Positions 22,270 to 38,359 of a stretch of 64,000 nt of DNA are shown here, piece by piece (positions within the stretch are counted from its first letter, which is position 1; each line of letters opens with the position of its first letter). The position numbers and the translations under genes are program-made. The notes beneath the pieces were generated by a model, which was given only the letters and a program-made list of their open reading frames with translations, ran no database searches and had not been told where the DNA came from. Source of the DNA: Gyromitra esculenta (taxonomy: Eukaryota; Ascomycota; Pezizomycetes; Pezizales; Discinaceae); contig JBCAML010000009.1 of NCBI GenBank assembly GCA_038503075.1, forward strand, positions 310,001 through 374,000, given 5' to 3'.

Positions 22270-23730
22270 TTAGTTGTACTCGAAGATCCGCGTGGTACTT
22301 ATATTTATCCTACTCCACTTCCTCCCTGTAAAAAGGCTCCGAACAAACAGACATGGCCAGTAAACGTGATAAAGGAACCAAAACGGAAGCGGATCCCACG
22401 TCTCAAAAGTTGCATCTTTCCAAAACAATAAATGAATCGTAAACTCCTTTAAATTAGCAAGGAAGTTCCGGAAGTCAGATATGTGGAGAAGTGGTAGAAG
22501 GAAAAGCGAGACAACGTCGTGTCCGATCCAGTAGAAGCTGCTGGTAGCGGTGGCATCAGGTATGCAAACATCGTTCGAGGGGATCCTAGAAGGGTCTAAT
22601 AGGCTGAGGTAACAATCGGCGAGTCTCTTTACATCTCCGTCGAAAAGTACAACGGAGGTATGCGTTCGTGGATTACATTCGATGGGGTAGATTTGGAGTT
22701 CTCCATCTGTGCATTCATCCTCTCGGACTATTAAGTCGAAGGACAACTGCCCTGTAACCTTCTTGCCTTCAAGACCTTTTGAATAACGCTCTGTGAATTC
22801 GAGCAACTTTTTCGAATATCTAGATTCTGCCGGAAGTGCTTTGTAGTGCATCAGCAACTCAGACGAAGGGCAGCCGACGAATGCCGTGACACGACCCTTC
22901 ACTACGACCGCGTGTGTGCAAAATTCTCTTCCCTTCACGAACTCTTGGAAAATCCAAGGCCTTTCAGCGTCTATCTCGAGCTGCGAAACCATGGCTATCG
23001 TTTCTTTCTCAGTTGGTCGTGGGTACAATGTCATATCCGCTCGAGAAACATCGTCGAGCCATACCGATTTCAAGATGTACTGCCTCGATTTTTTGCCGGC
23101 TAGAAATTCTAATGCTTCCTCGTGGCTCTTCACTAGTTTTGTTTCTGGGATCTTCAGCCTAATCGCCGCGGTTTTTTCGATAAAGTGATGCTTGTCGTGA
23201 AGGGTCTCGCATGTTTCGGGTTTGAATTGGAACACCTTGCAAGATGTTTCCCTTTCGATCTCCTGTTTTGCGAATGCGTCCTCCGTTGTCGTCGCTACCC
23301 CAGAAACACAAACCCATAAATCGACTCGTTCCTTTTTTATTATTCTTACTAGATCTCGCACATAAACTTCTTTCTCTATGGAATTTGTTGGCGTTCGAAG
23401 CTCATAGTGCTCGGAAAGTGATTTTGAGTACTTTCCGCTTGAGGGGATGCCTGCTCGCTGAAAGTCAAGGCCGATAACTCTATGGCCGGCAAGATAAAAA
23501 GTTCGGGCGAGAAATAGACCTTTGGTCATGGTGAGGGAGCTGACGAGAACGGTTTTCGGGGATGTTTCCATCGGCCGTGGTGGAGGAGGGAATAGGTATC
23601 CGTGGACGAAACATAGTGCAACGAAAGCTGTAGTTACTGGGAGAAACAAAAAGCTAAGAAATATAAGAGATATATTCTTGAAAATGTGCGTTGCGAAAGA
23701 GGCTTGGTGCTGCTGTTTTTGACGCTTCAT
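22270..23730 (-). CDS. mysC: MysC-type ATP-grasp ligase, membrane-anchored
   Basis: Single exon, 486 residues. It matches the ATP-grasp ligase of mycosporine synthesis, which joins an amino acid to 4-deoxygadusol with ATP (in cyanobacteria glycine, giving mycosporine-glycine). Visible marks in family order: an N-terminal hydrophobic helix (about 18-46) followed by PPPPRP; TVLVSSLTMTKGLFLAR-type start of the pre-grasp domain (about 60-76); YILKS (218-222, ATP-binding lysine); WIFQEFVKGREFCTHA (259-274); TGQLSFDLI (326-334); and PIECNPRTHTS (349-359), whose Glu and Asn are the metal ligands. A conserved FYWIGHD and two hydrophobic stretches lie in the C-terminal third. The length is close to the bacterial enzyme (about 460). 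It lies downstream of the cyclase gene on the same strand. The amino acid used cannot be read from sequence; fungal products suggest Gln or Ser. Confidence 0.88.
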   Translation of the reverse strand: MKRQKQQHQASFATHIFKNISLIFLSFLFLPVTTAFVALCFVHGYLFPPPPRPMETSPKTVLVSSLTMTKGLFLARTFYLAGHRVIGLDFQRAGIPSSGKYSKSLSEHYELRTPTNSIEKEVYVRDLVRIIKKERVDLWVCVSGVATTTEDAFAKQEIERETSCKVFQFKPETCETLHDKHHFIEKTAAIRLKIPETKLVKSHEEALEFLAGKKSRQYILKSVWLDDVSRADMTLYPRPTEKETIAMVSQLEIDAERPWIFQEFVKGREFCTHAVVVKGRVTAFVGCPSSELLMHYKALPAESRYSKKLLEFTERYSKGLEGKKVTGQLSFDLIVREDECTDGELQIYPIECNPRTHTSVVLFDGDVKRLADCYLSLLDPSRIPSNDVCIPDATATSSFYWIGHDVVSLFLLPLLHISDFRNFLANLKEFTIHLLFWKDATFETWDPLPFWFLYHVYWPCLFVRSLFTGRKWSRINISTTRIFEYN

Positions 23731-24600
23731 TTCTGGTAAGGGTACTGGACGGGCTGAGAGATGTGAATTCGAAGGGTGTGGAAACTACCCGCTTAAGTGT
23801 AGGGCTTTTTGCTTATCGATGTTGTGGTCCAGATCTGCTCCGTACTTAATCTCTGGTGATTGGCAGTGGTGTTTGTAACTCAAGGGTCTCTTGCATGATT
23901 TTTTAATAAAGATGGGAAGATACTGTGCTGGGAATAACTATGGGCAGTGTTCGCCCCGCGGCAGATGTTTGTTCGCTACAGCCAAGGGTTTACAATTTGG
24001 TTTGCAGAGACAATTTATTGATCCCTAGCATAGAAACCTATGGTTAAGGCCTAGGTTGCGAGACTAGACCGACATCATGATATCTTTGGGTGACAATTGC
24101 CGATCTAAAATACCTTAAAAACCATGATAGCAGCGGGAGCAGTTATTCCCCGTAATCTACGCAAGAAAGTTCAAAGTTCAGATACCAAACCTATCCGCTG
24201 ATCTACTAGTGTATGTGTGCCTACATCATGTAGCCTGAGCTTTTGGCCAATGTAGCCTTTGCAATATAGTCGAGGTATTATTATATAGCGCACAAAAATT
24301 CACATCCAATAGTATAATTGCGAGTGGTTTCAATTGAGATCGAAGCGGGCTCGTTAAAATGTATACTCAATACCATATGCATCTGTTTCTGTTTATTCTT
24401 GAGATATTGAGTGAAAAGTGTTATTGGTGTTATAATTACACGACACAACCTCTCCCATCACCTTCTCGAGCTCTGGTTGAACTGGACTTTTTCAAACAAA
24501 ACTCTCAACGAGTAAATAAAAGTAAAGGAAAAGAAAAGAAAGAAAAGAAAAAATTGAGAACAGAATTTCCAAGTTCTATGCACTAATTGTGTATCTAAGT
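23731..24600 (-). promoter_or_regulatory. Promoter of the ATP-grasp gene and 3' region of the cyclase gene
   Basis: The two genes are on the same strand with 870 bases between the cyclase stop (24601) and the ATP-grasp start (23730), so each should have its own promoter. A purine-rich AAAAGAAAAGAAAGAAAAG run lies at about 24530-24550. No further gene is seen. Confidence 0.45.
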
Positions 24601-26006
24601 TTAGTTTGGAAGTCTATTATATCCAACCAATCCGGAACCGGGGACTTCGAAACGAGTCCTCTTCGCGGCCGTCGCTGCAACGCCATCCTTGGGCTCGGAT
24701 ATGCCAGTATCACTGGCATCAACAAATGCACTAACACCTGCTCCCTGTTTGGGAAATAATTTGGCAAACTCTTTATGCATAGCCAATGCCTGGTTCATGT
24801 CCTCCACCGTAACATCATTCAGGAATACGCACTGTCCTAATGGTGCTGGAATGGCCGCACGAAGTTTCCCATCACGAGTTTTCACAATAGCATCAGTCCC
24901 TTTAGCGAGAAGGACTTCATCGAAAAGCGGATGGTCGATCGTCAACCCGGCCCTCGAGAAGAGACGGAGAATCCTGTTGTGGTCGGAAGGTGTTATCAGA
25001 CCTTTCCTCAGCGCCAGTGTCGCTGAGAAAGCCATATCCACGGAAATAGCATGGCCGTGCCGCAAAGGGATTTCGGGGGCGAGCTCAAGTGTTGGTGACC
25101 ATGTATGGCCGTATGCGATGACCCGATCAAGCCCAATTTCGTGAAGATTTGGGGTCTCGAGCTTCAGCATGACATGAATACTTCGACGGTTGATTGTGTC
25201 GGCAGCCTTTTTGAGCTCTACGCTGCTTCCATCTGCCCGACCAAATCTATGAGATATCAATTGCTCACAGTACTTATCAAGGAGCTCGAAAGTTTCCAAA
25301 TCAGCACAAGTTGAAATCTTGACGAGCTCTGCGAAGCCGTTCCGGACTTGGGATTCTGGCAGCGTTCGGAGAAAGGTGAAGTCGAGGAAAGTATGGATCG
25401 GGGCATGATAGGCACCAAGTCGATTCTTGTGCTTGCCGTGGTTGACAGCGACCTTAATAGAAACCGAAGCATCGATGAGCCCAATAACCGTAGTCGGGAT
25501 ACGAATATAATTTGTTGTTCTTCGGTAGGTTGCGCATGCAAATCTGGTAGCAATTGTTAACGTTGCTTAGGGCTAGGGCTAACTACTCATTTATAGGAGC
25601 AGCAAGGATCTGCGTTACTATCGACTTACCCAGCAACATCGGTGATAAGACCGCCCCCAACTACAAGCACGGGTTCCTTACGAATTATACCGAAATCAGT
25701 TATAGCCTCGCAGATGGATAACAGTGTTTCCATGGTCTTAGCTCGTTCTCCGATCTTCGTTTTGTGGATGGCTAGTCGAATGCCGTGGGACTGGAAATAA
25801 TGCTCCATCTGCTCCCCGTAAATTTCGCGGACATTGATGTCCGTAACGGCTAAGCATCGACCCCATTTCTTGTACATATCTGCAAGCTGGGTGTTCTCGA
25901 CAGCGAAAACACCATCGAGGAACGTGAAGTCATACGTGATCTTTTCATAACCCTCGACGTGGAAGCCAGTACTCGTCTCGGACACGGTTGCTTTGAGGTC
26001 TGACAT
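24601..26006 (-). CDS. mysA: Demethyl-4-deoxygadusol synthase-type sugar-phosphate cyclase
   Basis: Two exons: 26006-25630 and 25543-24601, with an 86-nt phase-2 intron (donor GTAAGT, acceptor CTACCAG). The product has 439 residues. It belongs to the dehydroquinate-synthase-like cyclases acting on sedoheptulose 7-phosphate with NAD+ and a metal ion. Marks: [12 protein letters not shown] (115-126, dinucleotide loop) split by the intron, then [26 protein letters not shown] (159-171); FAELVK with metal ligand E198; [10 protein letters not shown] with H272; and LRHGHA with H288/H290. Ala269 and Thr348 sit where published C7-cyclitol synthase comparisons place the DDGS-type pair (Ala/Thr) rather than the EEVS pair (Asp/His). 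The product would be demethyl-4-deoxygadusol, first step to mycosporines. It is divergent from the methyltransferase gene. Confidence 0.9.
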
Positions 26007-27803
26007 ACTTGATGGTATTTGCTACTGGAGCTGTTGAAGCTATGAGGAGACTTAGGAATGATGTTGAAGGACAACTTATTACAAGTGTTGAGTCGGTAGG
26101 TTTCGAATGAAGAGGGGGAACTGGGGGATTTAGATGTCTTATTCTATTTTGTTTTGTTGGGAAGACTTTATCGTCGGTAAAGATTACAGTACTACTTGTC
26201 TTTCGGTGACGCTGTGATAGGTTCCACCGCTATTTCTTCGGCATTTCATTATCAGCAGTCTGTAAAAAATGCATACGTCTATATATCCCGGCAATTACAA
26301 CCTCAATCTACAAGCGTTTAAGGACGCGACTAGATCCACTTAGTTTTCATTAACCTCGGGCACTAGTTTGATACTCAAGTGATATGCTGTATGGTGTGCT
26401 ATGGTGCAGGAAGTCTTAGGGGGCAAGTGTGTAAAGGTCTCCACATGTATTTTTTCACTGGATCGCCACCCCATCATCTAACAAGTACTAGTACTAGCAT
26501 CAACGTTGGTAGGTTTTTTCGAGCTTCAACGGCTTCCTGGTTGATGGTTGAGGTTCAAATTGAGAGCACACTATGTAATATGCAGTAACGTCACTCTGTG
26601 TGGCAATCTAGTGAAAAAATACATGTGGAGACCTTTACACACTTGCCCCCTAAGACTTCCTGCACTATAGATACCATCCCTTCGTCTGGATTCAGGTCCG
26701 AGGCCTGACATGCAACCTAAGCCGACTGGGTAAAAAGCAGAGCGAAGGTGTTGTGATAGTGTGCTCTTTACCAGCGCAACTAAGTTCAGGTGTGTTGTTG
26801 ATCTCACACCGTCTTCACGCTAAAAGGTCGTGAAAACCGGGAACAGATTAGGGGATGAGGTTCAGCTGATCAGCCGTGAATATGCTTGTTCGACCAGAAG
26901 TCTGTTTATTGGCAAGATATCGGTATAGCGTCACATAAATCTATGAGGTATTTAGGTCTAAGGGCTATGGGCTTCATTGCCGCTAATTTCTACTTGACAC
27001 TGTATGGACACGTCGCTGGTCCTCTCATGTCGTCAGTCTGGGTATGCAAACAAATGGTACGATAGCCGACAGGTTTGTTTCATGTAAGATTGTGTTTAGA
27101 CTCCCGATTTCATTCAAAGCAGCTGCGAGGGATTCTTGTCGGCTTGCAAACAAAAAACAAGATTTCATGCACAGAGCCGTAATACAATATATAGCTACAT
27201 CGACGATCGGGGGTTATTGGCGTAAAAACGGCCTCGGGTTTTATGATTAAGTTAGAGTTCATTTGATCCCGTACAGGCACTATCAAAATATACAACTTTT
27301 GCCTCGCTTTTGAGGAATGAGAGCCGGATCTAACGCAAGCACCATCTATATGGCAGCTCACAGTATGCGCGAGTACATATGATTGCTATTGTAAGATCTA
27401 ACTATATATCCAAGAACCATAGGAATCTCGAGCTAAAGAGCACCTGTCGCTACAACTATATGCAATTAGGCATATGTCGGAATAATTACCACACTGCCGA
27501 AAGACTACCTGAACTTAGGCCTGCTTTCATGCCCACTGCCACTAACTACTGAATCCGAACTATCGGTGACGGATCAAGCCCCAGCCCTCTATTAGAACTG
27601 TTGGCGTAGTTAAATTTACCGATTCGTGTTCGTGGCTATGGTCAGATGTCTAGTCATAATCTTGTGTAAAATGTATCTAGTGGCTGGCTACATAACTTGT
27701 GTTCTTTTGAGATGGGCCCAGTTATCTGACCACCCAATATTCTAGTTCATCAACAAGAAACAGCAACGAAGTGAGCTTGCCGTATCGCAATTACGAGAAA
27801 AAG
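26007..27803. promoter_or_regulatory. Divergent promoter region of cyclase and methyltransferase genes
   Basis: 1.8 kb between the cyclase start (26006, -) and the methyltransferase start (27804, +). It would drive both genes and is interrupted by the inverted-repeat element at 26402-26667. No coding frame is supported. The two track-length frames near 26.4-26.8 kb share a peptide only because they read the two arms of the inverted repeat. Confidence 0.5.
26402..26667. mobile_element. MITE-like element with about 68-bp inverted repeats
   Basis: 26401-26469 and 26600-26668 are inverted copies matching at 66 of 69 positions. A weaker, gapped match continues outward to 26391 and 26677. The three mismatches are all transitions (G/A or C/T), which is compatible with RIP-type mutation. 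TA lies at both ends (26400-26401 and 26668-26669), as for Tc1/mariner-type elements, but TA is its own complement, so this is not independent proof. The 130-bp interior has no coding capacity. A 12-mer AGAGCACACTAT in the interior (26563-26574) recurs inverted outside at 26756-26767. Confidence 0.7.
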
Positions 27804-28924
27804 ATGAGTAAATTCACGAGTAAAACCACGTATGCAGAGCAGCACGACGTTTACGTATGTGCCCACCTCTTATAAATCAAGCAGATAGGATATAGATACT
27901 TTTGAAAGAGGGAGACAGTAGTAATTCACAAACTAACACTGATAATACCACAGTTTGACGACGGCCGTGAAACTGAACTTCTCAAAACTATTTTCTCTCT
28001 TCCTCCCTCAAAACTCAACAATCTTCGCAATAACCCTACCAAGATTCTCGCAGCAATCGATGATTTCGCTACGAAGAAATATCTTATGAACATCGGGGAG
28101 TTGAAGGGTCAGTCATCTGCTTACCCTCGAGCATGTGTGTGTTCGAACTTAGATTGCATAAGCTATCATTTCTCTTATCATTTTATAGGATTCTGACGAG
28201 TAAATACTTGAGCCAGGAAAGCTGATAACCGACCTAATTTCTCAAACCAAGCCAACAACAATGGTCGAGCTTGGTGGCTACATTGGATACAGCACCCTCT
28301 TCTTCGCTTCTCATCTCCGCGATATGTTCCCGGACGAGGACAACATCACACGCCCAACGCCCCAATACTTCTGCCTGGAAATGAACCCACTTTTCGCAGC
28401 GATAATCATGGCTTTTGTGGATCTTGCTGGTCTCTCTGATATTGTCACGGTGGTGATCGGATCCTCTTCAGATTCTCTAAAGCGTTTACACACCGAAGGC
28501 ACTTTGAAGAAGATAGATCTGTTGTTTCTAGATCATTTTAAACCTGCCTATGTCAGTGATTTGAAGTTGTGCGAGAGTTTGGGGATGATCGTTTCCGGAA
28601 GCGTTTTAGCTGCCGATAACGTAATCAAGCCGGGTAATCCACCGTACTTGAAGTATGTGAGAATGAGTGTTGAGGGCAAGAAAAGCGCTGAGAAAAGGGC
28701 TTTGGAGGAAATGGTAAAGAAGGGTACTGTTAAGTTGCTTAATGGCGAGGTTGAGTCAATGGGAGATCCACGTTTGATATACGAAAGTAGAATGGTGAAG
28801 AGCTTTGAACCGACAGGTATTAAAGTATGTACTTCCTTCTCCTATATATGATACCCTGATAAGGCATTATGAGCTGACATTGAAATAGGACGCAGTTGAA
28901 ATCACAGTCTGCAAAGGACACTGA
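27804..28924 (+). CDS. Catechol-type SAM-dependent O-methyltransferase of the cluster
   Basis: Four exons: 27804-27854, 27954-28107, 28217-28824 and 28889-28924, giving 282 residues. The introns (99, 109 and 64 nt) have GTATGT or GTCAGT donors and restore phase exactly. The fold is the small Mg2+-dependent COMT type: FDDGRE near residues 18-23, LMNIGELKGKLITDLI, SAM motif I VELGGYIGYS (85-94), LDHFKPAY with D174 and K177, and LAADNVIKPG with D202-N203. These match the metal ligands (Asp, Asp, Asn) and catalytic Lys of catechol O-methyltransferase. The cluster position suggests it methylates demethyl-4-deoxygadusol to 4-deoxygadusol, the role of MysB. This is inferred from context and from the vicinal-oxygen substrate. 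A first-exon start of only 17 codons is typical for fungal genes; the start is moderately sure. Confidence 0.85.
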
Positions 28925-29267
28925 GTATAGAGTTTCATCCCATATTTGATCTTTCTTTGTTTCAAATGACAGCCGAGGCTTAAGCTTAGCCTACAAATTG
29001 TTTTATATAGTTTCTCTAAAATAAATTGATTCCAAGTATCCAATTGTCTAATGTTCATGAGTAAATGGAATGGTGATAATATATTATACGATGTACATAG
29101 AATAGAAGTATTCCAACGAAACAGAATATTGTTTGATTGAAGTAGGATTCGAACCTGCGTTGACTGAGTTGGTTATTTCTAACCCTGGATACTTCAATCA
29201 GCATTATCCCCTGCCCCATTTGGGCTGCAAGACCTTGTGATGTAGCTCGAGTTTTTTTTCGTAATAT
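28925..29267. other. Convergent 3' region with a tRNA-like palindrome
   Basis: 343 bases between the stops of the methyltransferase (+) and the NRPS-like gene (-). It contains the palindromic, B-box-bearing sequence described separately (29134-29200) and otherwise A/T-rich 3' UTR DNA. Confidence 0.5.
29134..29200 (-). other. tRNA-like palindromic sequence (possible tRNA relic)
   Basis: On the minus strand, GATTGAA and TTCAATC can pair as a perfect 7-bp acceptor stem. The TFIIIC B-box GGTTCGAATCC is present in the right place before the 3' acceptor strand, with a T-stem of 4/5 pairs. The middle is about 7 nt too short for a normal D arm plus anticodon arm, and no proper A box is seen on this strand. 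The outer 11 bp (TGATTGAAGTA) are perfect inverted repeats, so a tiny inverted-repeat element is an alternative. I do not call a functional tRNA. Confidence 0.35.
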
Positions 29268-32200
29268 TTACACTGTAACAAACCCACTCTGCACCCAATT
29301 CTTCCAGATTCTCTGCACATACTTCTTGTCAATCTTCCATCCCCCTCCATCCTTAAAAGTATCAGAAAGCGTTGCCGTATTCTTTACCTCAAAATTAAGG
29401 TTTGGTTTACTTTCCTGCTTGCAAGTACCCTCCTCATACTATCCAGTTAGTACATATCAGCTTTATTTCATGTCGAACTGAAACCAAAATATACGTCAAA
29501 TAAAAAATAAGAAGGTAAAGAGAACTCACATTCGCCTGCCACAGCCCCAGAAGCTTCAAGCTTGGATTCATTGGTGCAAAATCCTCAGTATCAGCCAACC
29601 TTTTGATCCATTGGCTCACCGTAACCCTATCAAAACCTGTGCCTTCGAGTTCCTGGATCCAATCCAAAATAGTGTTCCACGAAGTCGAAGTGTCTGTGTT
29701 TACGAGATGAAATACCGGATCCGCTGAATGATCTTCAGGATGAAAACTTAGTGCAATATCTAATACCGTTTTTGCTGCTATATCTACGGGGAGCCATGAA
29801 AGTTTCTGTGTGCAGTCTAATCAGTAGGAGATCAGCGATATCAAGGGCAGTAACAGGCCCTGTATTAAACCGCTAATACCTCATCTAACTCTGGGAGACA
29901 TCCCACAACGTTGACACTAGCAAACATCAGTGGCCACGCTTCGGTCTCATTCCAAATCCCGTTCACCGTATCTGCGCATAGTTGCCCAATTCTTAACACT
30001 TTCACCCTCCCTTTCAAGTTTTGGCAGACCTTCTCTGCAATCCATTTTGAACGGCCATAGCCGAGTGGGGCAGCAGAGCGTGGGTCATTAGTGAATTTTT
30101 CTTGAATAGCTGCACCAGGCTTGACATCACCAAGGACAGTGGCTGTGGATGAGCAAAAGTAGAGAAGAGATTGATGAAACGAGTTCAAAGTTAAATCTAG
30201 GAGATTTCGGATTCCTGCTTCTTTTAGCTACGAGGGGGTTGTCGAATTCTAGACACGCACCTGCAATATGATCTCTTTCAAAACTTTCAAGGGAGGCAAC
30301 AAAATTTACCGCCCATGCAGCCTTAAAGAGAAATTACCCATTAGATGTCATCAAAAGAGCTTAGGATGCTGGTAAAATACTGTAGAAACTTACATGGATA
30401 ATAGATGTAACTTCATCTCTCAATTGTCGATAGACCACATCCCCTAAGCCTAAGTCAGGCCTTCCTAACTCAGTTGCATAGACCATGACATCAGCTGCAG
30501 CCACACTCCCTTTAAGTGATGGGAGCTTTCGAGAAAGCAAACTCTCTCCAACACGGACCCGGGCATGTTCATTATCTTTGGCTCGGCAGAGGCAGATAAT
30601 CTTCTTGATCCCCTTTCTTGACTTGCACAACTGGTGAAGGATATGAGCTCCAAGCGCTCCAGTTGCGCCAGTGAGAACATGGAAAACGGTGAACAGTTAG
30701 TACCGGGACACCAGTGTAGAGTAAGTTACTTACTACAACATGTCCATCACCGTTGTTGTCATTATTTGTTCTGAATTCGTTTCCTGAGCCAAAGCTTCCA
30801 TATTTCTCAACCAAGTGAAGCATCAGATCCATCTGTTGAGCCCCTATATCTTCATTTGCCTCCTCGCCAGTAGTTATAAACCGCACAAGCCTATCACAAC
30901 TCTCAGCAACACACCCTAAGAGAAAGGCATACTCACCATCGATATCAATTCCCTTACCCTTCGACAGTCCTCTGTTCAAAGACTACGTTCAGCGGCAGCG
31001 CTTTCCCAATATCCAGACTCTATTCAAGAGTCAGCATACACTACTTAAACCCCCTTCGTTTTCTCTCAATCAACCCACGGCCTACCTTAGCTAGCCGATT
31101 TCGAATTTGTGCAGCTATAACCGAGTCTACACCAGCCGCGAATAGATCCATGTTTCCCTCAATATCTACTCTGCTGGTAATGTCTTTCACAAGATTGTAT
31201 ATAAACTTTTCCACGCCTTTCACATCTATGATTTTGATTTTTTCCCCCGCGCTAAGGCATTCGAAGGGTTGATATGCTTTGTCTATCGAATCTCGGAAAA
31301 TTTCGTTCACAGCTCCACGCATGACGGTTCCTTTACTACTTTTCGGTATTTTTACATCAACGCCCATGGTGACAACCATCTCTTCCATGATCTTCAAATG
31401 CGACTTCTCGTTCACCTCTTTCGTCAATTCTTTGAGTGTGGTGGTAGACCAATCGTGAGTCCTTTCACTTGGAAAAATTAGTACTCCTGGGAACGCTCGA
31501 CCGTTACCAAACGCTATTGCCTCAGCGATTGATTTGGATCCTTTAAATGCCTCTTCGATGACAGTAGGATCAAATTTCTTCCCGTTCGAAAGCACGATTA
31601 TGGCGTCATTGCGACCCTGGTACTTATATGCGCCTTTAATGATGGGATGTGGTGCAAAGAGGTCACCGGTTGCATAAGATCCGTCACGGCGATTTGGTTT
31701 TGCCTAGTTGAGTGATTAGTTGTGATTTAGAACTTGGGTGCGATTATACAATTTGCGGCCAACTCGGAAGGACAATGAGTTCGTATTTCCCTGAATTGTC
31801 ACTCTGCGGCTCGAAATGGAGTCCTGTGCAACTGGGCGAAACTCGAAGGTATTCCCAATCTTGGTCCATGGCAAAGTTGCGGTGGGAGGACATCAGAACT
31901 AATACATTTATCAGTTCGTGTGACCCATTGAATATCCCAAGGGATTCGTACATCCACACTCACTGCTCCCAAATCTCGAAACTAACTTAACTTCTCTTTC
32001 CACTAACTTCTTCCCTATTTCTGTCACCAGAGGCGCTCCACCAACACCTACCATGTCCATTCGAGCCATCCTCTTTAATATCCTGTCATCACCTGCACAC
32101 ACTTCTAATACATATGGCACCGCTGTCAACAGTTTTACTGGTAATGCTGCCCTGTCCGCTACCTGTAAAGCATTCAAGATATTGCCACTCGTTACGGGAA

Positions 32201-33167
32201 CTGACGGTGGATAGATCCATAGCATTGAAGACGACATTAGCGAACGCATCACATCCGCAGTGCCGCCGTGATACAACGGAGTTGTACTGAACGCTGCGGT
32301 CGGTGAATGTGGCGGGAGATATGGCAGGCGGGAGGTTGCAACTGCGTGCGAGTGCGGGATAAGCTTTGGAAGCCCAGTAGACGAGCCAGACGTGTGGTGG
32401 ATGTAAGCTGTTGTCTTGCCAGTGATTTTGCTAGGAGTTGGATATGGCTCTACCACAGACGACTGAGGAACTTGAGGAAGAGCATGACATTTGCAGGAAG
32501 TGGGCTTGCATGATTTTGCGAGGCTCTCGAGAGAAGGAGAGTAAAATATATGCGTTGATTCGGTGGTCTTGAGAAGATGCGATATCGCCCGCTGAGTACA
32601 TTGAGGCCTTGAAATGTTTTTTTTAAGCAATTCCATATAATCACGATTAGAAATATGGAGAAAGATACTAACGCAATCAATAGTACAGAATACCCAATCC
32701 TCAAAAGTGCCAAAAAGGTCATGAGTAGCTGAGCTGAACTCTGCGCCAATATTGCTACAGTGGGCGGAGATTTCATAATCGCTTCATCCGACAGAGCTGG
32801 AACGACATCATCTGAGGTCAATTGGTGTGCCAGCTTATTTGAAAAATTAAACATATCTTGGAATGCTACAAATAATCGTTACTACTACTTAAATCTTACT
32901 AATATTGATTAACTTACTATAGATGACAGAACCCCATTGCTTATCCTCCAGACAAGGAACTGGCATTCCTATTACTGGCAAATCAGGATCAGATGTTGCG
33001 CGTTCATCTAGTAACTGATTGATCGTGGTGATTTCATGTGGGTTAGCGATATTAATACACTGGGCATAGTCCAATGTTGCTACGAAATAGGACAACTGTT
33101 CTGCAAAGCCCTCCGATCTAAGATCTTCAGAGGATATTCTTGCAAGATTCTTTCGGGCTGGGTTCAT
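29268..33167 (-). CDS. NRPS-like A-T-R enzyme (carboxylate reductase type)
   Basis: Twelve exons fit: 33167-32918, 32856-32673, 32607-31952, 31898-31750, 31703-31086, 31019-30958, 30899-30734, 30678-30394, 30321-30261, 30214-29880, 29805-29530 and 29438-29268; total about 1,070 residues. Adenylation domain: HHTSGSSTGLPK (A3, about 215-226), FGSSECGFLMSSH, YATGD (D427), NGKKFDP. Thiolation domain: DLFAAGVDSV with carrier Ser607. Reductase domain: VLTGATGALGAH (696-707, NADPH loop), AAWAVNF, and YGRSK (Y863/K867). It would activate a carboxylic acid, load it on the carrier and release it as aldehyde or alcohol. The intron between exons 7 and 8 (30733-30679) ends AT, not AG, so exon 8 depends on a non-canonical or damaged site. 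The exon 6/7 border is uncertain. There is no condensation domain. Confidence 0.85.
30679..30733 (-). other. Intron with missing AG acceptor in the A-T-R gene
   Basis: The donor GTAAGT follows a phase-0 codon and TACTAAC is a perfect branch site 18 nt before the expected end. Family conservation demands that exon 8 start with the Val-Leu-Thr-Gly codons at 30678. The last two intron bases there are A-T (30680-30679). No AG lies between the donor's own and the next exon motif. The first AG that restores frame (exon start 30630) would delete 16 residues including the GATGALG loop. Confidence 0.7.
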
Positions 33168-33996
33168 TGTTGACCAAATATGAGAAAGTAAAAAAACTCG
33201 TTGAAATCAAGCTTTAGTACAGGATCCTTGAGAAAGCAGGGGAATATATTCTAATACAACTATCTACTAGGCGCTTTCATGAGTCTTCGTCATCTAACAT
33301 CATATCGTGTACAGACTACATGTGCTCTTTGAACCGGCCCAACTAGGATCTGACGCGAAGCATATAACCCTTGACAAGGAGTTCTACGGCCAAACCCAAA
33401 CAGCTTGTGCTCGAATCAAGAAGTCCACACGCGCTCGATATCGCCTCAGATGCATTACATCACGACTTTAAGAAGCAGCCTTCTGTTCATTTAGAACACT
33501 GCTCTCAACTAGAAATCCAAACCAACGCGATCTCCTCTCGCTAATGGCAGCACAGCAAAGATTCAAAGGATCATCAGTAAAGCTATAGTAGATACTCGAA
33601 AAACTCACTATCTCAGGGTACATCATCGCTACGACTAGCCCGAGTTACTCGAGAAAGCCGAGTGCTCTAACCATACAATCGTCGCGAAAATCTATCGCAT
33701 TTCATCATAGCTAAGGCCGAGAGCTATTTTAATGTTTACTCAGAGATAACCAGTGAATTTATCAAATGTCTATGGTATTTCAAATAGGTACATGTATTGT
33801 AAAAGGAAATCAAATCCCGCACATTCGGATATACGTACTTACCTAATCGAGACAAACCCCGCTAATATAAACCTCAAGTCCATCAGCTTCCAACTCCAAC
33901 CCGAACTTCACCAATCCCGCATTCTATCAATCGCAAAGGCATCAACTCATCCCATTCATCCCACTCACCCAATTACATTTAATTATCTTTTAAAAA
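33168..33996. promoter_or_regulatory. Divergent promoter of the A-T-R and aldo-keto reductase genes
   Basis: 829 bases between two divergent starts (33167 - and 33997 +). A shared promoter is consistent with co-expression. CTCA/CCATTCATCCCACTCACCC pyrimidine-rich DNA lies just before the reductase ATG. No coding signal. Confidence 0.5.
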
Positions 33997-35039
33997 ATGT
34001 CTTCAATTACTTCAAAGACCGACCCGGTCCCTCTCCCCGCCTCCAACCTTACCATCCCCCGCCTCGGCTTCGGAGTTTACCGTTCTGCACCAGAAGTATG
34101 TGTTAAATCGTGTCTTACCGCTCTCGAGCTCGGATACCGGCATATCGACACTGCCCAGTTCTATGAGAATGAAACTGAGGTTGGCCATGCTGTTCGTGAA
34201 AGTGGGTTGCCGAGGGAAGAGGTGTTTGTCACTACAAAAATCATGACTCCACTAGGAAGCGTTGAGAAGTCGCTGGAATCACTGCGGGAAAGTGTCAAGA
34301 AGGTTGGGTTGGGATATATAGATTTATTTTTGATCCATACGCCTTCTTGCGGGAAGGAGGGGCGGGAGGAATTGTGGCTGGCGTTGGAGAAACTAAAGGA
34401 GGAAGGAGGCGCAAAAAGTATTGGAGTCAGCAATTTGTGAGTTTTTTGCTCTATCTTTTTTTGTGGATTTTGGAGGGGGAAATTGACAGCTGGTGTAGTG
34501 GGGTGGCACATATGCAGCAGTTGAAGGAGTTTTCGAAGACTATTCCAGCGGTGAATCAGATTGAGGTAATAATATGCTTCTTTCAATTCTACGATTCGTA
34601 AATTTACTAAATTTACTGTATAGCTTCATCCATGGTGCCAACAGACTGAGGTTGTGAACCATTGTAAAGACGAAGGGATTGTGGTTGAGGTAAGTTCTAA
34701 TAAGCCCTGTTCTCCGCCCTATTTAGTTATTTTATTGTATTCGACTCTTCTTACACATCTCAGGCATATGCACCAATTGTCCGCGCACAAAAGAACGACG
34801 ATCCAACTCTTGTCGAGGTTGCCAAAGCGCACGGTGTCACAACTACGCAAGTCCTCATCCGCTGGTCCCTACAGCGCGGATTCGTACCTTTGCCAAAGAG
34901 CGATGATCCGAAGAGGATTAAGAGCAATGCTGACGTTTTTGGGTTCGAGCTGACGGACGAAGAGATGAAGAAAATTAATGCAAAGGGATTGCCAGGTGGC
35001 GAGGGCGCGATTTGCCCTTACCTTGCAGACTGCGAGTGA
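33997..35039 (+). CDS. Aldo-keto reductase of the cluster
   Basis: Four exons: 33997-34436, 34499-34565, 34624-34689 and 34764-35039, giving 282 residues. The three introns (62, 58 and 74 nt) restore phase, and the joins rebuild family motifs (IGVSNF-GVAHMQQLKEF; AVNQIE-LHPWCQQ; GIVVE-AYAPIVR). The catalytic tetrad of the AKR family is visible: Asp and Tyr in IDTAQFYENE, Lys in TTKIM, His in LFLIHTPS. NADPH-binding PLPKSDDPKRIKSNADVF follows near the C-terminus. The enzyme would reduce an aldehyde or ketone. Its divergent pairing with the A-T-R gene suggests it reduces the aldehyde released there. Functional proof is absent, and unrelated housekeeping use is possible. Confidence 0.88.
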
Positions 35040-36437: not shown

Positions 36438-38359
36438 ATGTCGATGCCGAGAAGATGGCGACAACCGGATGACGAAACTGAGATGGAGGCAGACAACTGG
36501 TGTGGGCCTGAGATGCGGCTATTCGTATCGTTCTGGCTATTTGGGACGCTGATTGCAATGCAGTTTAGGCAATTTATGATCCTTCTAGTTCTAGGGCGAG
36601 CTTTGGTGAGCTTGAGGTGAAGCTATGATAGCTAACAATTTTTGAAAGTATAGCGTCGTTATCACCGCTGCGAATGAGTAAGCTCTCATTATCACTCTGC
36701 GCTACGGTAGCTAATTTTAAACCTTCACAGCTTAGTAGCTGATCGTGCACCAACTGGTTTGATCCTATTCGCATATACCCTGCCATCGGTCCTAGTTCGT
36801 ACCCTCGTCCCGTTCATCCGTTTTCCTGACCTTAGTACCTATTTTCCTTCCTTCAACCGTGGCAGCGAGAGTACTCCTGGTCGTCTCCTCAACAGGCTAT
36901 ACAATGCGCGAGGTACTGGTGAAGAGGCAGACAAATTCTACTCCACAACACCAGATTCGTCGAGTACTATCACATCGTCATCTGAAGAGACACTCAGACC
37001 AAAGAAGAGAGATACGTTGACGAAACAGGTAAACTATCCATTAAGACTAAGCATATGTGTATTTTCTAGTTTCTGTGGGCTGCAACTGCTGGCATGGGCG
37101 GATATAGTTGGTGTGAGATTGATAGGGATCGCGATGGCGAGTTTGAGTAGTAATTTGGGAGATATGTTGGTCTCTCTTCATCATTCTAGTTAGTTGTTCA
37201 CACATTATTGACATAGTCATTAGGTCGTTCTTACAGCTTTGCTCTCATTATCCTGCGTTTTTTGGGTCTGCGTCCGCGTTCGGTGGCTACACCACTGGTG
37301 GCGGATCCGCAGGATTACTTGGGGCATTCTTATATACGTTCTGCACATCGACATTACGGATAAGCCCCAGTGCAACAATATCTACAATTGGATTATTCCC
37401 AATAATCTTACTATTCGTATACGGATTCCTACTCCCACGGCCAACAGACACAGAACAGGCCGAGGTAGCGTCAGCAGACATAGCACCAGGAGAGATAGAA
37501 CAGGAAGAAAGTATCACAGACTTACCATTATCAGCAAAACTACGAATCGTCCAACCGATGTTCTGGCCCTTCATGGCACCGTTAGCAGCATTAATGCTAA
37601 TCGAGAACACTACAGTCCAAGTCTGTCCCCACCCCTAAAGTGAACACCACGCATACTAATCATAACCTTTAGGGCATTCTCCCAACCCTTGTCTTCTACC
37701 TTCCCTTCAACCATGCTACTACCCTGCTCCCAACATTATTCAATTCGATATTCCACCTCACGCGTGATTTTTATCCCGCCTATATAACAGCATACCAATT
37801 CTCGATCTTTATCGGTCGTTCCTCCATCTCGTTTTTCCAGATACCGGCGTCGTCTGCGTCGCGATGGGCTCTGGTGGCGGTGGAAGTATTGTTGTTGACT
37901 CTGCAGATGAGTGAGAGTTTATCGACGGGGAAGGAGAATGATGCAACTGGAGTACTGTATGGGCCGCTTGTGGTACTGGTTTTAACGGTGTGTATGGGGC
38001 TTTGTGCGGGGTTGAGTTTCAGCAATACGTATTGGAGGGTTAACAATGGTGTTTTGCCGAGGGGGGTATGGGTGGCGTTGGAGAATGCGCAAAGAGGAAT
38101 TGGCGGTGATGGATATGCTAGAGTTAGGGAAATAGAGGAGACAGGTATAGGGAATTTAGATGGTGTTGCTCAAGAGCGGGGAGAAAGTGGCGAGGCAGAG
38201 AAGGAGATGGCTATGAGGGAGTTCTTGCTCAGCACTATTGCACCCCCAGATACTTTTGCGATCTTGTTGGCGAGTCTGGTGGGTATGAAAGTACAGCCCG
38301 CACTATGTAAGGCGCAGATGGCTAGAGGAAGAGGCTTGTGCAGCAAGACAAAGGGGTGA
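36438..38359 (+). CDS. BTN1: Battenin (CLN3/Btn1) family vacuolar membrane protein
   Basis: Five exons are proposed: 36438-36605, 36649-36677, 36731-37169, 37237-37620 and 37673-38359; about 568 residues. Battenin is a polytopic vacuolar/lysosomal protein of the major-facilitator-like CLN3 family that affects vacuolar pH and basic amino-acid balance. Family marks: RLFVSFWLFG (first membrane helix), YSVVITAANDLV, ILFAYTLPSVLVRTLVPF, GLQLLAWADIVGVRLIGIAMASLSS split over a conserved loop, GGYTTGGGSAGLLGAFLYT (written here in part), YPAYITAYQFSIFIGRSSIS, and near the end MREFLLSTIAPPDTF then QPALCKAQ. It is longer than usual (about 450) owing to Ser/Thr- and Glu-rich loops. The exon 1 end and the exon 3 donor (GTCTCT) are the weakest calls. 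It is a housekeeping neighbour, not an obvious cluster member. Confidence 0.85.

Follow-up and report, generated by a model that had tools for sequence, protein, structure and literature searches.

The window analysed here is a 64,000-nucleotide stretch of the Gyromitra esculenta genome (assembly GCA_038503075.1, contig JBCAML010000009.1, positions 310,001 to 374,000), and its positions 22270..35039 hold five adjacent genes that may form a mycosporine biosynthetic cluster. The genes encode a MysC-type ATP-grasp ligase, a cyclase of the desmethyl-4-deoxygadusol synthase (DDGS) type, an O-methyltransferase (OMT), a nonribosomal peptide synthetase (NRPS)-like enzyme with adenylation, thiolation and reductase domains (A-T-R), and an aldo-keto reductase (AKR), in the order ligase (-), cyclase (-), OMT (+), A-T-R (-) and AKR (+). 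A sequence-only reading of the window had proposed these five genes and two divergent promoter pairs. Rebuilding the genes from the window sequence, with families checked using Pfam and NCBIfam, placed all five where that reading had put them (Table 1), and both pairs were recovered, with 1797 bp from start to start for cyclase/OMT and 829 bp for A-T-R/AKR; the OMT and A-T-R genes lie tail to tail, 343 bp apart. The reading had further singled out the cyclase as spliced: the cyclase gene does have one intron, but splicing was found in four of the genes and not in the cyclase alone. An apparent stop at 28201 that would have indicated a frameshift in the OMT gene was removed by an acceptor at 28216.

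Table 1 Coordinates, in window numbering, of the five genes and associated features
Feature	Position	Strand	Description
MysC-type ATP-grasp ligase, proposed to join 4-deoxygadusol and an amino acid	23730..22270	-	486 aa; single exon; a pair of N-terminal helices precedes the ATP-grasp part
Predicted desmethyl-4-deoxygadusol synthase (MysA/DDGS)	26006..24601	-	439 aa; exons 25630-26006 and 24601-25543; one intron
MITE-like element (MITE, miniature inverted-repeat transposable element)	26399..26670 (or 26395-26675)	.	inverted ends of 71 nt that are 96% complementary; in the promoter region of the divergent DDGS/OMT pair
O-methyltransferase (MysB-like)	27804..28924	+	282 aa, four exons; PF01596 and PF13578
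NRPS-like A-T-R enzyme (putative carboxylate reductase)	33167..29268	-	1070 aa, twelve exons; PF00501, PF23562, PF00550, PF07993
A-T-R gene intron, GT..AT ends	30679..30733	-	no AG acceptor
Aldo-keto reductase (AKR)	33997..35039	+	282 aa, four exons; PF00248

The cyclase was 58% identical to PDB chain 5tpr, which carries the PDB label 3-dehydroquinate synthase (DHQS) and which we take to be the DDGS of Anabaena. It scored 520 bits against 5tpr, 252 bits against ValA and 124 bits against the best plain DHQS, and an EEVS or plain DHQS identity is ruled out by these scores. A stretch of 16 residues is common to the cyclase and 5tpr; a 14-residue motif is as in 5tpr and close to that of the DDGS of Phaffia, and a 30-residue motif is similar to the signature given for Phaffia DDGS in PMC10057719. 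Identity to the DDGS of 24 actinobacterial loci (L004-L027) was 54-58%. These data strongly support the prediction that the cyclase is a DDGS rather than an EEVS or DHQS.

Structure comparison gave an ATP-grasp fold for the ligase, with amino-acid ligases among its matches, and the protein is homologous to the ligase whose gene accompanies DDGS in bacteria. The DDGS, OMT and ATP-grasp genes are adjacent in the window, and the sequence-only reading's MysA-OMT-MysC core was thus borne out by the 5tpr score of the cyclase together with the OMT and the MysC-type ligase. The same three enzymes make up the DDGS-OMT-ATPG cluster of Phaffia rhodozyma, in which DDGS also stands opposite to OMT and carries a similar signature; that cluster differs in spanning 7.9 kb without A-T-R or AKR, in having more introns and in belonging to a basidiomycete (PMC10057719). 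The Phaffia core has also been treated in PMC5103461. A mycosporine-type core equal in its set of enzymes to the functional Phaffia cluster is therefore strongly supported by sequence comparison. Among the MysC homologues, the 743-aa protein P0184 of Oleoguttula sp. CCFEE 6159 carries O-methyltransferase domains, which reflects either a fusion of OMT and MysC or two genes merged in the annotation.

At the bacterial loci, a ligase lies shortly downstream of DDGS in 23 of 25 examined. Neither an A-T-R enzyme (0/25) nor an AKR (0/25) was found at these loci at E <= 1e-8, within flanks of at most 10 kb and in several cases much shorter.

The A-T-R enzyme was represented by a 1068-aa model in the Pfam, homologue and genome searches and by a 1070-aa model in the motif and NCBIfam checks, two residues differing at one junction. 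Pfam and homologue alignment found AMP-binding, PP-binding and NAD_binding_4 domains in this order with their motifs intact, and the carrier Ser610 and the YxxxK motif were kept in all 120 homologues listed. The AKR has PF00248 and, by eye, the catalytic tetrad Asp-Tyr-Lys-His, and is a complete small reductase. Domain order is shared with the fungal A-T-R carboxylate reductases, which fall into seven clades (PMC9605436), and release chemistry presumably is as well; that paper knows no characterised member of clades IV and VII, and the word mycosporine is absent from its main text. The other role considered for the enzyme was that of cyanobacterial MysE, in which it would attach a further amino acid and yield an imino mycosporine-like amino acid; both enzymes are NRPS-like, and both have DDGS, OMT and ATP-grasp ligase genes in their neighbourhood (PMC10057719). 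However, the Gyromitra enzyme ends in a reductase domain, condensation and thioesterase domains are absent from its Pfam matches, and fungi are said to produce aminocyclohexenones only (PMC10057719), which makes a MysE role very improbable. A carboxylate reductase is the better reading of the enzyme, and the AKR would complete the conversion to the alcohol.

Gene copy numbers were obtained from the whole source genome (47.1 Mb, 23 contigs, with the window on contig C9). The search for the DHQ-synthase family found one locus besides the window cyclase, presumably AROM; MysC had one distant further match in the genome (26%) and OMT had none. For the A-T-R enzyme, four loci matched both the A and the R part, namely the window and one each on C8, C14 and C10, and there was one weak partial match in addition. 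Because four loci match both parts, the chance expectation of an A-T-R locus within about 12 kb either side of the core is about 0.002 by our arithmetic, and chance adjacency of the five genes is ruled out by the copy numbers.

Taken together, we consider that the locus is a mycosporine cluster in which the known three-enzyme core is joined by a two-enzyme carboxyl-to-alcohol module, and that its product is a mycosporine amino-alcohol, with a probability of roughly 0.5 (0.52). In the proposed pathway, DDGS would cyclise sedoheptulose 7-phosphate and the OMT would methylate the product to 4-deoxygadusol, to which the MysC-type ligase, perhaps membrane-anchored through its N-terminal helices, would couple an amino acid (glutamine is a guess). 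The A-T-R enzyme would then adenylate the carboxyl group of the mycosporine-amino acid, carry it on the T domain and release an aldehyde with NADPH, and the AKR would reduce the aldehyde to the primary alcohol of a mycosporine amino-alcohol such as mycosporine-glutaminol. We infer all of the substrates, the amino acid, the product and the order in which reduction follows coupling.

Motif A4 of the adenylation domain bears on the order of reduction and coupling. Amino-acid-activating adenylation domains have an Asp at this position, which grips the free alpha-amine. In the A-T-R enzyme the position is His261, and His was found in 119 of the 120 homologues listed, the remaining one having a gap. 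Since the amine-gripping Asp is replaced, His261 fits an N-substituted substrate; in a mycosporine-amino acid the amine is bound to the ring, suggesting that reduction after coupling fits best. In the reverse order, A-T-R and AKR would first convert the free amino acid, glutamine or serine, to glutaminol or serinol, and the ligase would then couple this alcohol to 4-deoxygadusol. The proposal that the Phaffia ATP-grasp enzyme takes glutaminol (PMC10057719) and the amino-acid ligases among the structural matches of the ligase favour this order, but the absence of the Asp speaks against it. The A-T-R enzyme was also far under the cut-offs of the NCBIfam amino-acid adenylation model and of TIGR03443 (L-aminoadipate reductase, Lys2; 95 vs 1030 bits), which is a weak argument as the bacterial-type carboxylic acid reductase model NF041592 was likewise not reached (72 vs 1300 bits). 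Reduction of the free amino acid is thus quite improbable, and reduction of the coupled mycosporine-amino acid is preferred.

Contig sharing in other fungi was judged from locus tags and from contig sizes identical to the base, as printed with the homologues. The lists comprised the best 120 of 1114 A-T-R homologues (E <= 0.001 among 7991 candidates scored, some of which may not be orthologues), of 2133 for MysC and of 7925 for AKR, so that counts are low and favour close relatives; species overlap was counted by hand for named species, and P0106 was left out of contig matching. As a control, five contig-size pairs were near but unequal (at most 10 bases apart, all short contigs), compared with nine exact matches. 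Within these lists, the nearest named relative of the A-T-R enzyme was from Morchella sextelata (61% identity, covering 75% of the enzyme), and those of the AKR were from Choiromyces (75%) and Morchella snyderi (72%). A-T-R and AKR shared a contig in four of the six species common to their lists, and were two locus tags apart in the lichen fungi Xylographa trunciseda, X. opegraphella and Circinaria calcarea. A-T-R and MysC shared a contig in three of four species (the lichens Caeruleum heppii, Candelina mexicana and Pycnora praestabilis), and MysC and AKR in two of five (the truffles Tuber magnatum and Choiromyces venosus). In Pestalotiopsis fici, the tag of the AKR homologue PFICI_12762 adjoins that of PFICI_12763, a putative counterpart of the A-T-R enzyme and one of 13 A-T-R enzymes listed in PMC9605436.

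The relatives tested are closer to the window genes than to other copies in the genome. All 11 A-T-R homologues tested, of the 120 listed, scored 573-897 bits against the window gene versus 172-451 bits against the loci on C8, C14 and C10, and all 13 AKR homologues tested gave the window AKR a better score than the C14 AKR; the C14 copies are thereby ruled out as orthologues of the lichen genes. The C14 locus (C14:1554332-1559135; L030, L032, L033) itself holds a second A-T-R gene beside an AKR, whose best pieces show 32-35% and 50-53% identity, respectively, to their window counterparts. Membership of the A-T-R enzyme and AKR in the mycosporine cluster is partly supported: in some fungi, their predicted orthologues are linked in pairs, either with one another or with MysC. 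The conserved linkage that the sequence-only reading had called for was found for these pairs on shared contigs among the homologues listed.

Several observations weigh against service of the two reductases in mycosporine synthesis. Linkage elsewhere is pairwise, with no second genome holding all five genes together among the listed homologues. The A-T-R and AKR genes of Ascochyta rabiei share a contig but are 13 tags apart, those of Paraphoma and Elasticomyces lie on contigs of unequal size, the A-T-R and MysC genes of Candelina mexicana are 33 tags apart, and MysC and AKR are on separate contigs in Exophiala spinifera and E. viscosa. His261 is also compatible with aryl or aliphatic acids. 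No word of length 9 or 10 was common to the three upstream regions of the locus, and one of length 8 was, which is below the mean of random window stretches. The strongest published point against a need for reductases is that Phaffia DDGS, OMT and ATPG alone are reported to give mycosporine-glutaminol in baker's yeast, as judged by co-migration in high-performance liquid chromatography (PMC10057719). If this is right, no cluster reductase is needed in Phaffia.

A rival reading separates a complete three-gene mycosporine core from an adjacent A-T-R/AKR module, whose alcohol product would derive from some other carboxylic acid. In its favour, Circinaria has A-T-R and AKR close together and MysC on a different contig, a weak point given the short length of both contigs; several species lack linkage to MysC, Phaffia reportedly manages with three genes (PMC10057719), and the recurrence of the pairing, as on C14, weakens the case that the window pair serves mycosporine synthesis, although it helps the alcohol-module reading in general. 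On the other side stand the MysC gene on the A-T-R contig in three of four species and on the AKR contig in two of five, and the low chance expectation of such a neighbourhood in the source genome. On balance, separate modules are judged unlikely, and the joined five-gene pathway is preferred.

The A-T-R gene has one unusual intron. It opens with GTAAGT, holds TACTAAC and closes with AT, and no AG acceptor was found between TACTAAC and the nucleotide-binding motif that would keep this motif in frame. The protein also deviates at 21 of 193 strongly conserved columns, compared with a median of one among homologues, and homologues with the nucleotide-binding motif intact exist. The junction may reflect an assembly error, non-canonical splicing, or an A-T-R gene impaired in this strain by loss of the acceptor; in the last case the strain should stop at mycosporine-acid, a situation compatible with the proposed pathway and judged apart from it. 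However, the other exons are open and the other ten introns are GT..AG. Of the 164 columns that the Morchella fragment covers, 17 deviate in the window protein and 22 in that of Morchella, with ten in common, which points to lineage divergence rather than decay. Impairment of the gene is judged somewhat unlikely.

Other features of the locus were examined. The left flank, described earlier as gene-poor, had no open reading frame (ORF) of at least 140 aa between 19204 and 22270, and the housekeeping gene proposed on the right is a CLN3/battenin-like gene at 36711-38356. The MITE-like element has at least 10 near full-length copies in the genome, including the window copy, with 87-100% identity, and stands outside the pathway. 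No tRNA was found between the OMT and A-T-R genes, an Rfam scan of the window gave no match, and no glycosyltransferase for a glucoside was found among ten flanking ORFs scanned, which was not a full scan.

Mycosporines carry an amino acid or an amino-alcohol, and Ascochyta makes a glutaminol glucoside (PMC10057719), while mycosporine production has been reported for Aureobasidium (PMC4227064). Both genera are represented among the best 120 of 1114 A-T-R homologues. Clusters with NRPS-like genes have been assigned to mycosporine-like compounds in most Hypoxylaceae genomes surveyed and named 'myc'; the text portions covered gave no gene list, NRPS-like function or amino-alcohol proposal (PMC8403587). 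Nothing on reductases in fungal mycosporine clusters was found in the portions covered of PMC11905612, PMC7826186 and PMC9394291. In the literature covered, no A-T-R enzyme or AKR was found assigned to a mycosporine amino-alcohol, which is weak evidence of absence as subscription journals were largely outside its scope. What is newly argued here is a plausible carboxyl-to-alcohol module joined to a genuine mycosporine core of a fungus.

Amino-alcohols are present in many mycosporines of fungi, and for the functional Phaffia cluster the text covered leaves the source of glutaminol unexplained (PMC10057719). The linked module provides named candidate enzymes, a two-gene test and a predicted mass change of about -14 Da from acid to alcohol. 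We tentatively suggest that an A-T-R enzyme reducing the finished mycosporine-amino acid, together with an AKR, is a possible ascomycete solution to the amino-alcohol mycosporines of fungi (glutaminol, serinol and others), kept from morels and truffles to lichens. If true, this would assign a role to a group of A-T-R reductases that is widespread in fungi, represented by the 1114 proteins found here, not all of which are necessarily orthologues.

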